A stretch of 64,000 nt of DNA from Flavobacterium sp. MK4S-17 (GTDB lineage: Bacteria > Bacteroidota > Bacteroidia > Flavobacteriales > Flavobacteriaceae): assembly GCF_009848495.1 (NCBI RefSeq), contig NZ_WWEP01000018.1, positions 1 through 64,000 on the forward strand, read 5' to 3'. Position 1 is the stretch's first letter; each line of letters starts with the position of its first letter. Under the pieces are notes generated by a model, which had not been told where the DNA came from, did no database searches, and worked only from the letters and a program-made list of their open reading frames with translations. The translations under genes and the position numbers were made by a program. Positions 30,178-48,227 of the stretch are shown piece after piece.

Positions 30178-30217
30178 GAAAGCTTTTATGTGTAATGCAT
30201 AAAAGCTTTCTTTTTTT
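30178..30217 (+). terminator. Rho-independent terminator after DJ-1/PfpI gene
   Basis: 13-bp stem GAAAGCTTTTATG / CATAAAAGCTTTC, loop TGTAATG, then seven T. It rules out the earlier ATG at 30195 as start of the next gene. Confidence 0.92.
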
Positions 30218-36650: not shown

Positions 36651-36708
36651 ATAAAATTTAATGAAAAAAAAGGGAGTTTAAACTCCCTTTTTTTTCATTA
36701 AATTTTAT
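36651..36708. terminator. 58-bp perfect palindrome, bidirectional terminator
   Basis: Two 29-base arms (36651-36679 and 36680-36708) are exact reverse complements with no spacer. The centre is AAGGGAGTTTAAACTCCCTT flanked by A8 and T8, which act as terminator tails for both strands. The stop codon of the convergent gene (36705-36707) lies inside it. Confidence 0.93.
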
Positions 36709-43949: not shown

Positions 43950-46898
43950 TTATGGTTTAGGCTCAGGCAAAACAGCTTCCTGTATTACCTTTTGTATATC
44001 TTCACGTATATTTTCTTTAGATAGCCTGTTTTCTCCCGCTTCAGGATATGTCCTGTTGGAAAGGAAAACATAAACGATTTCAGTTTCAGGATCGGCCCAT
44101 GCCATAGTACCTGTAAAGCCCGTATGCCCAAAGCTGGATTTTGATACACAGCCGCAGGTTGGCCCTGATTTTTCTATTTGCGGCTTGTCGAAGCCCAGGC
44201 CTCGCCTATTGCCTTCCCGGCAATCATAACAGGTATTAAAAGTATCAAATGTTTTGGCAGAAAAATACTCTTTTCCTCCGTATGTACCCTTATTAAGGTA
44301 CATCTGCATAATTTTGGCTACATCCATAGCATTGGAAAACAGTCCTGCATGCCCTGCTACACCATCCTGCATTGCGGCTGCCATATCGTGCACATAACCC
44401 TGTATAACCTGGTAACGGTAATAATTATCTATTTCTGTAGGCGGTATAATGCTCATATCAAACTTTCGCAGCGGATTATAAGTAGTATAAGATGCCCCAA
44501 GCGGCTTGTAAAAATTTTCATTGCTTAGTATGTCAAGCTTCTTGCCTGTTTTATTTTCAAGATATTCCTTAAGCAGTATAAAGGTAAAATCACTATACTT
44601 ATATTCCTTTTTTCTTAAAAGTTTGCTTTCAGCAATACGGGCAATTATAGTATCCTGGTAATCTTTCCTTAAATAAAGGTTTTCTGCCACCTGGTACGGA
44701 AATTCAGCACTATACATTTTACTGTAATAAGTGGAATCAGGATGCTTGCCGGCATCAAGCGTTGCCTTGTAAAAAGGCAGCCAGGGCTGGAATTTTGCCT
44801 GGTGCAAAAGCATATCTTTTAAAGTTATATTTTTTTTATCAGTATGGGCAAAAACAGGAAGTAATTTGCCGAGCTTATCGTCAAGCTTTAACTCGCCTCT
44901 GTCATAAAGCTGCATTATGTTAGGCAGGGTAGCAAGTATTTTGGTAAGCGATGCCACATCATAAATATCAGAATTCCTTACCTTCATATCATTATCATAC
45001 GTATGGTAACCAAAAGACTTTTGGTAAACCACCTTGCCTTTCCTTGCCACAAGTACCTGAAGGCCGGGCGTCATCTTTTCGTTAATGGCACGTTGTGCAA
45101 TTAAATCAATTTTTGTAAGCCATGCTGTATTCATTCCCGCATTTTGTGGTGTTGTAAAGCCAAGCCTGCCCAACTCCCTTGTCTGCACTCCCTGATTAAG
45201 CCTGAATGAACCGGCAATGGTTACCGGCAGTTTCCCTTTTGAGCCTATGGCGCCAAATACAATCTCTGCAGCCACTGTCTGGGCAATTTCATTATTTTGG
45301 TATGCCATTATAACGCCTTCTATATTCCTGTAGTTTTTTAGTGGTATAAGTGTGTAAGGCTTAGCAAAAACGGTTAAAATAGTTTTATTATTTTTTGCAA
45401 TACTATCAATCCAGGTTAGTTCCTTAGCGGTAAAATCATGCTTTTTCCATGCACCGTCTGCCTTATGAAAGCCAAGTATAACTGTTGAATAATCCTTAAG
45501 CTTTTCCATCAGCAAGTGCAGGCTGTCTTCTTTAATTTCAGTAACTTCAGTATATTTCTGCAATGTGTTCAGGTAAACCGAACCGTCATCATCACCAAGC
45601 TTTACATAAGCTATTTTTTCATTTTCAATATGTTCTACAGGCAATAGCCCTTCATCATTTTTAAGTACCGTAACTGCGTTTTCATAAAGCTTGTAATTAA
45701 GGTCTTCATATTCGCTTGCATTAAGGTCGTTATAAAGATTTTGAAGGTCTACAGGTGTATAATTATTAAGCCCTGCCCTGAATTTGTGTGCTAAAATCTT
45801 TTTTACCGAATAAGACAGCCTTTCTTCCGTAAGTACATTATCCACAAATGCCTGACGGAACTTTTCTATGGCTACAGGTACATTTTCTGCAAAAAGCAAA
45901 ACATCATTACCTGCTAAAAACGCTTCAAGGTCAATATCGCCCGGCTGCATATAGCTGCTGGCACCTTTCATATTAAGTGCATCTGTAAAAATGAGCCCTT
46001 TAAAGCCCAACTCACCTTTAAGGATATTGGTAATTACATTATAGGAAATAGAGGTGGGATAATTTTTGGCAGCTTCTATACTCGGTACATTAAGGTGTGC
46101 CACCATTATACTTGCCAAACCTTCATCAAAAAGTTTTTTATAAGGGTAAAATTCTATATTATCTAATCGCTGCCTGTCAAAGGGCAGGTAAGGCAATCCG
46201 TAATGGGAATCAGAGGCAGTATCGCCATGCCCCGGAAAGTGTTTTCCTGTTGCATAAATACCCTGGCTCTGTATGCCTCTCATTAATGCCAGTGCCCTTT
46301 CGGCCACATTTTGCCTGTCTTCCCCAAATGAGCGGTTGCCGATAATAGGGTTGGCGGGGTTTGAGTTAATGTCCAGTACCGGGGCAAAATTAAAATGTAT
46401 GCCCATCCTGTTGGCCTGCATACCCATCTGCTCTCCCATAGTTTCCAACAGGCTCATATCCTGTACCGCGCCCAAAGTCATATTCCAGGGATAACGGTAG
46501 GTTGAATCAAGCCTCATACTAAGCCCCCACTCTGCATCTATACCTATAAATAACGGTACTTCCGACTCTGCCTGGTACCTGTTGGTTAGTTTGGCTTGCC
46601 TTACCGGGCCGCCCTGAAAAAAAATAAGTCCGCCAACCTTATAATCGGTTACAAGCTTATCTATACTTTTTACATGCTCCATATCCTTGTTGGAATAGGC
46701 AGCTACCATAAATAACTGCCCTACCCTTTCATCAAAAGATAGTTTATTGTAAATGCTGTCAACCCATTTGCGTTCAGCTGCCGACTCATAATCGTTAAAT
46801 ATCTTTTCCTGCTGTGCAAAAACTGTATTTATAACCAAGAAAAAAACCAGTACCGATAACCTCATTAATCTGTTCTTTATTAAATTAAAAATCATCAT
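43950..46898 (-). CDS. GH3 beta-N-acetylglucosaminidase fused to a beta-lactamase-type serine hydrolase
   Basis: 982 residues with a signal peptide (cleavage near VFAQ, residue 29). The N-terminal half is a NagZ-like GH3 catalytic domain: KHFPGHGDTASDSHYGLP near residue 217 holds the acid/base His-Asp dyad, and TDALNMKGA near residue 304 the nucleophile Asp. A GH3 C-terminal-type segment follows (about 400-570). From about 600 the protein is a class C beta-lactamase/penicillin-binding-like domain with the SxxK motif in VASLTKI (about 650) and a YSDFTF motif. Both halves look catalytically intact. Peptidoglycan recycling or muropeptide trimming in the periplasm is likely. The start codon lies in a hairpin. 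Confidence 0.93.
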   Translation of the reverse strand: MMIFNLIKNRLMRLSVLVFFLVINTVFAQQEKIFNDYESAAERKWVDSIYNKLSFDERVGQLFMVAAYSNKDMEHVKSIDKLVTDYKVGGLIFFQGGPVRQAKLTNRYQAESEVPLFIGIDAEWGLSMRLDSTYRYPWNMTLGAVQDMSLLETMGEQMGMQANRMGIHFNFAPVLDINSNPANPIIGNRSFGEDRQNVAERALALMRGIQSQGIYATGKHFPGHGDTASDSHYGLPYLPFDRQRLDNIEFYPYKKLFDEGLASIMVAHLNVPSIEAAKNYPTSISYNVITNILKGELGFKGLIFTDALNMKGASSYMQPGDIDLEAFLAGNDVLLFAENVPVAIEKFRQAFVDNVLTEERLSYSVKKILAHKFRAGLNNYTPVDLQNLYNDLNASEYEDLNYKLYENAVTVLKNDEGLLPVEHIENEKIAYVKLGDDDGSVYLNTLQKYTEVTEIKEDSLHLLMEKLKDYSTVILGFHKADGAWKKHDFTAKELTWIDSIAKNNKTILTVFAKPYTLIPLKNYRNIEGVIMAYQNNEIAQTVAAEIVFGAIGSKGKLPVTIAGSFRLNQGVQTRELGRLGFTTPQNAGMNTAWLTKIDLIAQRAINEKMTPGLQVLVARKGKVVYQKSFGYHTYDNDMKVRNSDIYDVASLTKILATLPNIMQLYDRGELKLDDKLGKLLPVFAHTDKKNITLKDMLLHQAKFQPWLPFYKATLDAGKHPDSTYYSKMYSAEFPYQVAENLYLRKDYQDTIIARIAESKLLRKKEYKYSDFTFILLKEYLENKTGKKLDILSNENFYKPLGASYTTYNPLRKFDMSIIPPTEIDNYYRYQVIQGYVHDMAAAMQDGVAGHAGLFSNAMDVAKIMQMYLNKGTYGGKEYFSAKTFDTFNTCYDCREGNRRGLGFDKPQIEKSGPTCGCVSKSSFGHTGFTGTMAWADPETEIVYVFLSNRTYPEAGENRLSKENIREDIQKVIQEAVLPEPKP

Positions 46899-46920
46899 TA
46901 CAAGGAAATAATGATGATTT
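46889..46920 (-). promoter_or_regulatory. 12-bp hairpin enclosing the GH3 start codon
   Basis: Arms 46889-46900 and 46909-46920 are exact reverse complements. On the mRNA: AAATCATCATTA, loop TTTCCTTG, TAATGATGATTT. Both possible ATG codons (46898 and 46895) lie in the 3' arm, so translation could be gated by opening the stem. Confidence 0.6.
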
Positions 46921-46947
46921 ATATTTATACTGTGCCGAAAGCATCTT

Positions 46948-47430
46948 TTAAAAGAAGCGGCTGTGCCAGCTTTCAGCAGCAGGTACTTCCCAAAAATCCT
47001 GCCATTCTCCTACTGTATTAACGAGATTATTAAATACAATAGTATTAGCAGATACAGCCTTTTCTTTGGCCATTTTTTTAAACTCAATTAAAGGCTTGTG
47101 CGTTATATGCTCCCCCATTTTAAAGGTAACATTCATTTTATCAAGCAACTCCACATCATATTTCTTTTCAAGCTCCTGTATAAAATGCACAGAGGCATCT
47201 ATAGAACAGCCTGTGGAAGCCTGAACCTCCTGGTTTACAGCCAGTATAATAAACCTGTTGTATTTTATTAAATAAGAAGCTTCAAGCCCGGTGCCATGTG
47301 CTGCCCAGTTTTCAATAAAATTTTTTAAGGCATTGTCTATTTCCGCTATTTCTTCATCAGAGAATTTCCTGTTGGACTGGTATATCCAGATCCTTGATTC
47401 TTCCGGCAGCGTTTCAAAAGGTACATACAT
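46948..47430 (-). CDS. Conserved protein of unknown function
   Basis: 160 residues. It begins MYVPFETLPEESRIWIYQSN and includes a GCSIDASVHFIQELE helix with one Cys. From memory, relatives are labelled ABC transporter ATPase in databases, but there is no Walker A or B motif, so that label is wrong on sequence grounds. It follows the Fe-S protein by 2 bases and may serve that module. Confidence 0.75.
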   Translation of the reverse strand: MYVPFETLPEESRIWIYQSNRKFSDEEIAEIDNALKNFIENWAAHGTGLEASYLIKYNRFIILAVNQEVQASTGCSIDASVHFIQELEKKYDVELLDKMNVTFKMGEHITHKPLIEFKKMAKEKAVSANTIVFNNLVNTVGEWQDFWEVPAAESWHSRFF

Positions 47431-47432
47431 AA

Positions 47433-48227
47433 TTATAAATCCTTTGCATTGGCAATAAGTTCTGCCACATCCATAACTTCAATTTCGGCTTCCCTGTTTT
47501 TAGCCTTAACACCATCTGTAAGCATGGTATTGCAAAAAGGGCATCCTGCAGCTATAATCTGCGGCTGTGTTTCAAGGGCATCCTCAGTCCTCTCCACATT
47601 CACATCCTTACGGCCGGGTTCCGGCTCCTTAAACATTTGTGCACCACCTGCACCACAACATAGGCCGTTCCTGCGCGAACGTTTCATTTCCACCAGTTCA
47701 GCATCCAGTTTTTCAATAAGGTCGCGCGGGGCTTCATATATATTATTGGCACGGCCTAAATAGCAAGGGTCATGAAAAGTTATGCGTTTTCCTTTAAACT
47801 GCCCGCCTTCTATGCTTAGCCTTCCTTCATCCAGCAGCGATTTTAGAAATTGTGTGTGGTGCACCACCTCATAATTACCGCCTAAGCCGGGATATTCATT
47901 TTTAATTGTATTAAAACAATGCGGGCATGCCGTAACTATCTTTTTTACTTCATACCCATCCAGCACCTGTATATTCATCATGGCCTGCATCTGAAACAAA
48001 AACTCATTCCCTGCCCTCTTTGCAGGGTCGCCCGTACAGCTTTCCTCTGTTCCCAATACTGCAAACGATACATTTGCCTGGTTAAGCAGCTTTACAAATG
48101 CTTTTGTTATTTTTTTGGCCCTGTCATCAAAACTGCCGGAACAGCCAACCCAAAAAAGAACTTCGGGCTGTTTTCCCTGCGCCATCATTTCGGCCATAGT
48201 CGGAACTGTCAAAATTTCTTCTGCCAT
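47433..48227 (-). CDS. CCG-domain Fe-S oxidoreductase subunit (HdrB/GlpC-like)
   Basis: 264 residues with two cysteine-rich CCG-type repeats: the first runs from WVGCSGSF through GTEESCTGDPAKRAG to TACPHCFN, the second through HDPCYLGRANN, GLCCGAGGAQMF and GCPFCNTML. This layout binds non-cubane [4Fe-4S] clusters as in HdrB or the GlpC/LutA family. It should accept electrons from the membrane Fe-S protein encoded upstream, with a HAD gene in between (4-base gap). The electron donor and acceptor are not identifiable from the window. Confidence 0.88.
   Translation of the reverse strand: MAEEILTVPTMAEMMAQGKQPEVLFWVGCSGSFDDRAKKITKAFVKLLNQANVSFAVLGTEESCTGDPAKRAGNEFLFQMQAMMNIQVLDGYEVKKIVTACPHCFNTIKNEYPGLGGNYEVVHHTQFLKSLLDEGRLSIEGGQFKGKRITFHDPCYLGRANNIYEAPRDLIEKLDAELVEMKRSRRNGLCCGAGGAQMFKEPEPGRKDVNVERTEDALETQPQIIAAGCPFCNTMLTDGVKAKNREAEIEVMDVAELIANAKDL

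Follow-up and report, generated by a model that had tools for sequence, protein, structure and literature searches.

Flavobacterium sp. MK4S-17 carries, between a gene for a 160-residue protein and a gene for a GH3/beta-lactamase protein, a hairpin that is very likely a functional cis-element, because a part of the orthologous loci share a conserved stem with covarying pairs. It was located in a 64 000-nucleotide stretch of DNA (the window; positions 1–64,000 of contig NZ_WWEP01000018.1, assembly GCF_009848495.1) from the 2.95-Mb genome. The reading that we prefer, and to which we give an even chance, is that of a hairpin that forms in RNA where two transcription units meet and that would serve as the terminator of the upstream unit and possibly as a 5′ element of the GH3 mRNA. 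The observations behind it are RNA-type pairing that is conserved within part of the genus, a terminator-like setting and the reading frames, all taken from the sequences compared. A preliminary description of this DNA had proposed that the hairpin locks the start codon of the GH3 gene, with a temperature switch as one possibility and a DNA operator as the alternative. The repeat and its character as a conserved, covarying cis-element have held, whereas ATGATG as a start codon, the lock and the thermometer have not, and the operator is disfavoured. The features are listed in Table 1.

Table 1. Features around the hairpin, in window coordinates.
Feature	Position	Strand	Remarks
GH3/beta-lactamase gene, from the better supported start	43950–46865	−	Starts MRLSVLVFF..., which is codon 12 onwards in the listed ORF; PF00933, PF01915, PF00144
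Listed N-terminal extension, probably outside the protein	46866–46898	−	MMIFNLIKNRL, 11 codons; frame and stops vary among relatives
U-rich run after core TGATG	46881–46892	−	T at 8 of 12 positions; part of the run is paired in the stem
Conserved hairpin	46889–46920	−	5′ arm 46920–46909, loop 46908–46901, 3′ arm 46900–46889; core CATCA/TGATG
Upstream gene, 160 residues	46948–47430	−	No Pfam or NCBIfam match; stop-to-hairpin distance 27 nt; taken as last gene of the upstream operon

Structure and setting of the hairpin

The minus strand from 46920 to 46889 reads AAATCATCATTA-TTTCCTTG-TAATGATGATTT, with 12 of 12 perfect pairs and a loop of eight bases, exactly the inverted repeat that had been described. 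The isolated 32-mer is predicted to fold as RNA at −12.7 kcal/mol (z = −7.1); within a context of 101 nt the fold is unremarkable (z = −1.1), with an equally good one in 28 of 200 shuffles. The window contains seven perfect stems of at least 12 bp (loop 3–10), compared with none in each of 20 dinucleotide shuffles, and eight of at least 10 bp (same loop range), compared with a mean of 0.85 over 20 shuffles. The repeat is thus beyond chance, since no stem of its length arose in the 20 shuffled windows. All eight stems of at least 10 bp are located at the 3′ ends of genes (as called from open reading frames), five of them between convergent genes. Owing to this excess and this placement, we regard the hairpin as real and as a member of a class that marks gene ends in the window. 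The longest of the eight is a perfect 27-bp inverted repeat with a four-base loop at 36651–36708, between convergent genes.

The motif ATCATCATN{6,26}ATGATGAT occurs at a single place in the 2.95-Mb genome, which led us to reject a repeat family or a mobile element. Neither the exact pattern nor a model search of the genome returned a second site of similar quality, and the runner-up in the model search, at E = 0.008, proved to be a hairpin at a gene end. A known RNA family was also rejected, as the Rfam 15 covariance models gave no match to positions 46000–48000 up to E = 1. A plasmid search with 401 bases gave no match. No paper on the hairpin is evident from titles or abstract openings, which are no proof of absence.

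The GH3/beta-lactamase fusion named in the preliminary description is confirmed by Pfam matches to both types of domain. The same domain build is found in RmNag3 of Rhodothermus marinus, a characterised protein for which the authors suggest a link to peptidoglycan turnover; the likeness is in the protein only, the available part of that paper containing no hairpin (PMC6987092). Orthologs with the hairpin (L002–L174) mostly have an ordinary-looking signal peptide, and many without it have a lipoprotein-like N-terminus, both as read by eye.

Reading frames at the start of the GH3/beta-lactamase gene

Reading frames were compared in 35 hairpin-bearing loci, some of which are near-duplicates. The ATG in the 3′ arm is retained in all 35, is in frame and open in nine (the window among them), is in frame but stopped in five and lies in another frame in 21. 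Translation from this ATG in L003, as one instance, gives MVILL and then a stop. An in-frame ATG is located 21–31 nt beyond the TGATG core in 34 of the 35 loci (L139 lacks one, and L003 has an additional in-frame ATG 12 nt beyond the core); in the window this ATG is codon 12. The sequences better support a GH3 start codon outside the hairpin, at codon 12, and the 11-codon extension probably does not belong to the real protein. A small upstream reading frame opening at ATGATG was considered as well, and it differs in frame and length between species.

On the sequence evidence, the lock fails because the 3′-arm ATG is mostly out of frame or stopped (26 of 35 loci) and a better ATG lies past the core. 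ATGATG is indeed placed in the 3′ arm as described, where it is fully paired in the predicted fold, and the retention of the ATG in every locus, with an open frame in nine, speaks for a lock. The mean pairing near codon 12, however, is 0.51 with the hairpin and 0.52 without it. Between 10 and 42 °C the predicted fold stays the same, its energy going from −21.2 to −11.1 kcal/mol, which makes a temperature switch unlikely, and a thermometer was rejected on this predicted stability. A start-codon lock or thermometer as first proposed is hardly credible.

In the available part of their study of F. johnsoniae, Baez et al. describe AUG as under-represented near start codons in Bacteroidetes and pairing as reduced from −20 to +20 around the start (PMC6847099); the end of the hairpin falls just outside this low-pairing zone. 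Elsewhere in the window, at 30178–30210, a 13-bp hairpin lies across the start given for another ORF (30195, plus strand). This start was probably called too early, since a second possible start, internal to the ORF and reading MKKYF... with a signal-like stretch, lies downstream.

Conservation of the stem and its apparent link to the neighbouring genes

The stem changes between species in the manner of paired RNA. Among 21 sequences, pre-filtered for at least nine of ten pairs with wobble allowed, 99.6% of 252 cells are paired, four pairs are altered on both sides and all ten one-sided changes are of the G–U type. Covarying stems of the kind proposed earlier are therefore present in part of the orthologs; most loci lack the repeat altogether. 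The loop ranges from 3 to 13 nt among the hairpin loci (5, 5 and 4 nt in L145, L171 and L174, respectively) and the half-sites are 11–17 nt apart in the other 32 loci. Stem changes that preserve pairing, together with loops of such variable length, favour RNA over a DNA operator, and the loop range and the G–U-type changes are incompatible with a rigid DNA dimer site. A dimeric regulator bound to inverted half-sites beside a promoter would account for the conserved half-site and for a dyad at a possible transcript start. With variable spacing, wobble-type one-sided changes, no second site in the genome and none of the five neighbours tested recognisable as a regulator (the 160-residue protein being without an assigned family), such an operator is very improbable.

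In its setting the RNA hairpin resembles an intrinsic terminator that closes the upstream operon. It lies outside the genes, and in all 35 hairpin loci the 12 nt after the core contain 6–10 T, in a run that is partly paired. Like the intrinsic terminators of Flavobacterium, it follows soon after a stop codon, with A-rich sequence before it and U-rich sequence after it, and the same site behind the 160-residue gene is occupied in other species. It differs from them in that only two of its 12 pairs are G–C, so that the stem is not G+C-rich; 34 of the 35 loci have two or three such pairs (three each in L145, L171 and L174), and a terminator scan requiring at least three G–C pairs found none in 46500–47500.

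The 160-residue protein was detected in all 30 genomes searched. In 20 of these no GH3 gene is present in the locus (∼1.5 kb on each side), and a hairpin follows the stop codon of the 160-residue gene in 17 of the 20, at a distance of 18–24 nt in 14 and of 6, 6 and 47 nt in the others. Among loci in which the GH3 gene comes next and the hairpin is absent, 12 show an intergenic distance of 7–42 nt, as in one operon; L046, L054, L060, L082 and L083 have a long gap and yet no hairpin. The gap lengths and the hairpins behind the 160-residue stop codon argue, with these exceptions, that the hairpin probably ends the upstream unit.

These results would also fit an ordinary intrinsic terminator with the GH3 gene close by happenstance, given that the place and form of the hairpin are shared with the other gene-end hairpins of the window and that it recurs behind the 160-residue gene in most genomes without GH3 in the locus. 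The behaviour of the stem sequence speaks against this. We compared 24 genomes chosen for carrying the hairpin (seven protein-picked and 17 found via the model R1), a set that is informative only as a contrast between the stem and the controls because hairpin presence was the selection criterion. When the 20 stem bases of the window are matched to the 23 other genomes, the best match of each differs at a median of 0 positions, and at no more than four in 22 of the 23. Three control terminators in the same genomes, which follow what are presumably tamB-like, NADH-dehydrogenase-like and pseudouridine-synthase-like genes, have medians of 8, 11 and 9 mismatches, the level of shuffled sequence, and none matches with four or fewer (0 of 22, 0 of 10 and 0 of 21). 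The stem at the GH3 site is thus almost invariant between species and those of the three controls are not conserved.

A second contrast is given by loci with and without the GH3 gene. With GH3 in the locus, stems differ at 0.5–0.6 of 16 bases where the 160-residue proteins are 80–90% identical, and at 0.5–1.1 of 16 bases over 60–90% identity, in a set chosen because the stem contains ATCATCA (of the 32 loci whose stem reaches at least 11 bp, 30 qualify and L161 and L169 were dropped). Without GH3 in the locus they differ at 3.4–3.7 of 16 bases at 80–90% identity, although this comparison set is another clade. In five loci a gene for a 406-residue protein, which we take to be serB, intervenes between the 160-residue gene and the hairpin, and the hairpin remains beside the GH3 gene. 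In L169 a CGTCA/TGACG hairpin follows the 160-residue gene several hundred nucleotides from the GH3 gene. Owing to the conservation relative to the controls, the drift in loci without GH3 and the hairpin staying with the GH3 gene, the constraint on the stem sequence appears to be tied to the GH3 gene. By these comparisons the hairpin is more than an ordinary terminator, and a role as nothing else is doubtful. Part of the invariance of the core CATCA stems from the method, since CATCA was itself the search string. The spacing from hairpin to start is tighter than that from stop to hairpin at p = 0.066, from which no claim is made.

A constraint of this kind might also reflect a sequence-specific attenuator or leader, in which the CAUCA/UGAUG stem is recognised by a protein or a small RNA that controls read-through into, or translation of, the GH3 gene. 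The core varies little even though wobble pairs would be tolerable, and in the 19 best-scoring of 398 genomes of the genus (the source genome included, and some having fed the model) every match is at the GH3 gene. The minimum-energy structures contain no competing fold, a candidate factor is not known and the genome has no second target of similar score; we consider this mechanism possible but unlikely.

Two protein-picked sets of relatives were used to trace the hairpin. In set A, 61 genomes were searched and 44 loci looked at (30 loci and 14 stretches); set B comprises the best 80 of 240 candidates and shares a few genomes with set A. A core-bearing hairpin precedes the gene in seven of the 44 loci and in 20 of the 80. 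F. cerinum and F. odoriferum are among the species with hairpin-bearing strains. Orthologs without the repeat, which the preliminary description had named as evidence against its proposal, therefore make up most of the loci looked at. A first listing had 26 of 110 loci with the hairpin, L066 and L069 being left out as chance occurrences far upstream. In a tree of 71 partial proteins, 32 of them with the hairpin (ten rows short, midpoint root), the hairpin is found in three separate parts and seven gains or losses are required, five of them forced by well-supported branches. A single origin followed by losses is the simpler reading, as the stem is nearly identical throughout. L172 (G027) has only the 3′ half of the motif (TTTGATGATG), shortly before the GH3 start, with no matching 5′ arm.

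Of the 398 genomes of the genus, 172 were matched by the model R1 (E up to 0.01), some of the matched genomes having also contributed to the model. Of 30 loci read among the matches listed, 24 are at the GH3 gene and six are gene-end hairpins. When 397 genomes of the family were searched with a limit of E = 1e-4, 12 other genomes matched at 14 loci, at which neither neighbouring gene (GH3 or 160-residue) is present. These matches, none of them at a GH3 gene, look like plain terminators, and a spread beyond the genus was rejected.

Possible transcript start and proposed role

A −7 box (TAnnTTTG) ends 4–6 nt before the CATCA core in 15 of the 35 hairpin loci, which suggests that the GH3 mRNA may begin at or next to CATCA in the loci that bear it. 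In F. psychrophilum the box occupies positions −12 to −5, according to the available part of PMC9723704. Twelve of the 15 box-bearing loci are in the tree, all within one 15-row clade of modest support (85/81); the clade of the window lacks the box, and the box also stands before two of the 13 terminators that served as a comparison and have no GH3 gene nearby in the locus. For these reasons we treat the −7 box as a lead and not as a result. A promoter common to all species was rejected, as only 15 of the 35 loci have the box. The transcript start inside the repeat, which the preliminary description had named as refuting its proposal, is accordingly a prediction for 15 of 35 loci and finds no counterpart in the clade of the window.

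In Escherichia coli, ompA is an example of an mRNA stabilised by a 5′-terminal stem-loop. The arrangement in the box-bearing clade would be similar, with the core falling on approximately positions +1 to +3 in the GH3 mRNA; it differs in that the start is only predicted here and in that the clade of the window is without the box. Structured leaders are also found within the same genus: the available part of PMC9723704 lists 64 structured 5′ regions in F. psychrophilum mRNAs, while the present hairpin has no Rfam match.

From position and sequence we infer termination, a transcript start and an effect on the mRNA in the following form. First, the hairpin would act behind the 160-residue gene, the last of the upstream operon, as an intrinsic terminator that is rich in A and U and weak. 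Its second job, which is less certain, would belong to the GH3/beta-lactamase gene. A sigma-A −7 box that ends 4–6 nt before the core in one large clade would there direct the GH3 mRNA to start at or next to CAUCA, so that the messenger would carry the hairpin as a 5′-terminal stem-loop, 21–31 nt ahead of the start codon. Such a stem-loop could shield the mRNA from decay or hold the region of translation initiation free of structure. Several points weigh against this reading: the few G–C pairs in nearly all loci are weak for a terminator, an ordinary terminator role leaves the fixed stem sequence unexplained, the −7 box is missing in the clade of the window and present before some comparison terminators, and most orthologs looked at lack the hairpin, some despite a long gap.

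A broader and more tentative proposal, which we think improbable at present, is that of a new cis-acting RNA element of Flavobacterium that combines a terminator and the 5′ end of the downstream gene in one, with the CAUCA/UGAUG stem read by a putative factor and the gene for the secreted GH3/beta-lactamase protein thereby coupled to wall turnover. If the reading as a junction element is true, a terminator-like hairpin would keep its stem sequence across several branches of the genus while three other terminators of the same genomes turn over freely. The case would then illustrate how start-codon calls can be misled by a hairpin that lies over an ATG in genomes without Shine–Dalgarno sequences, and a cis-element of a cell-wall enzyme would become directly testable.
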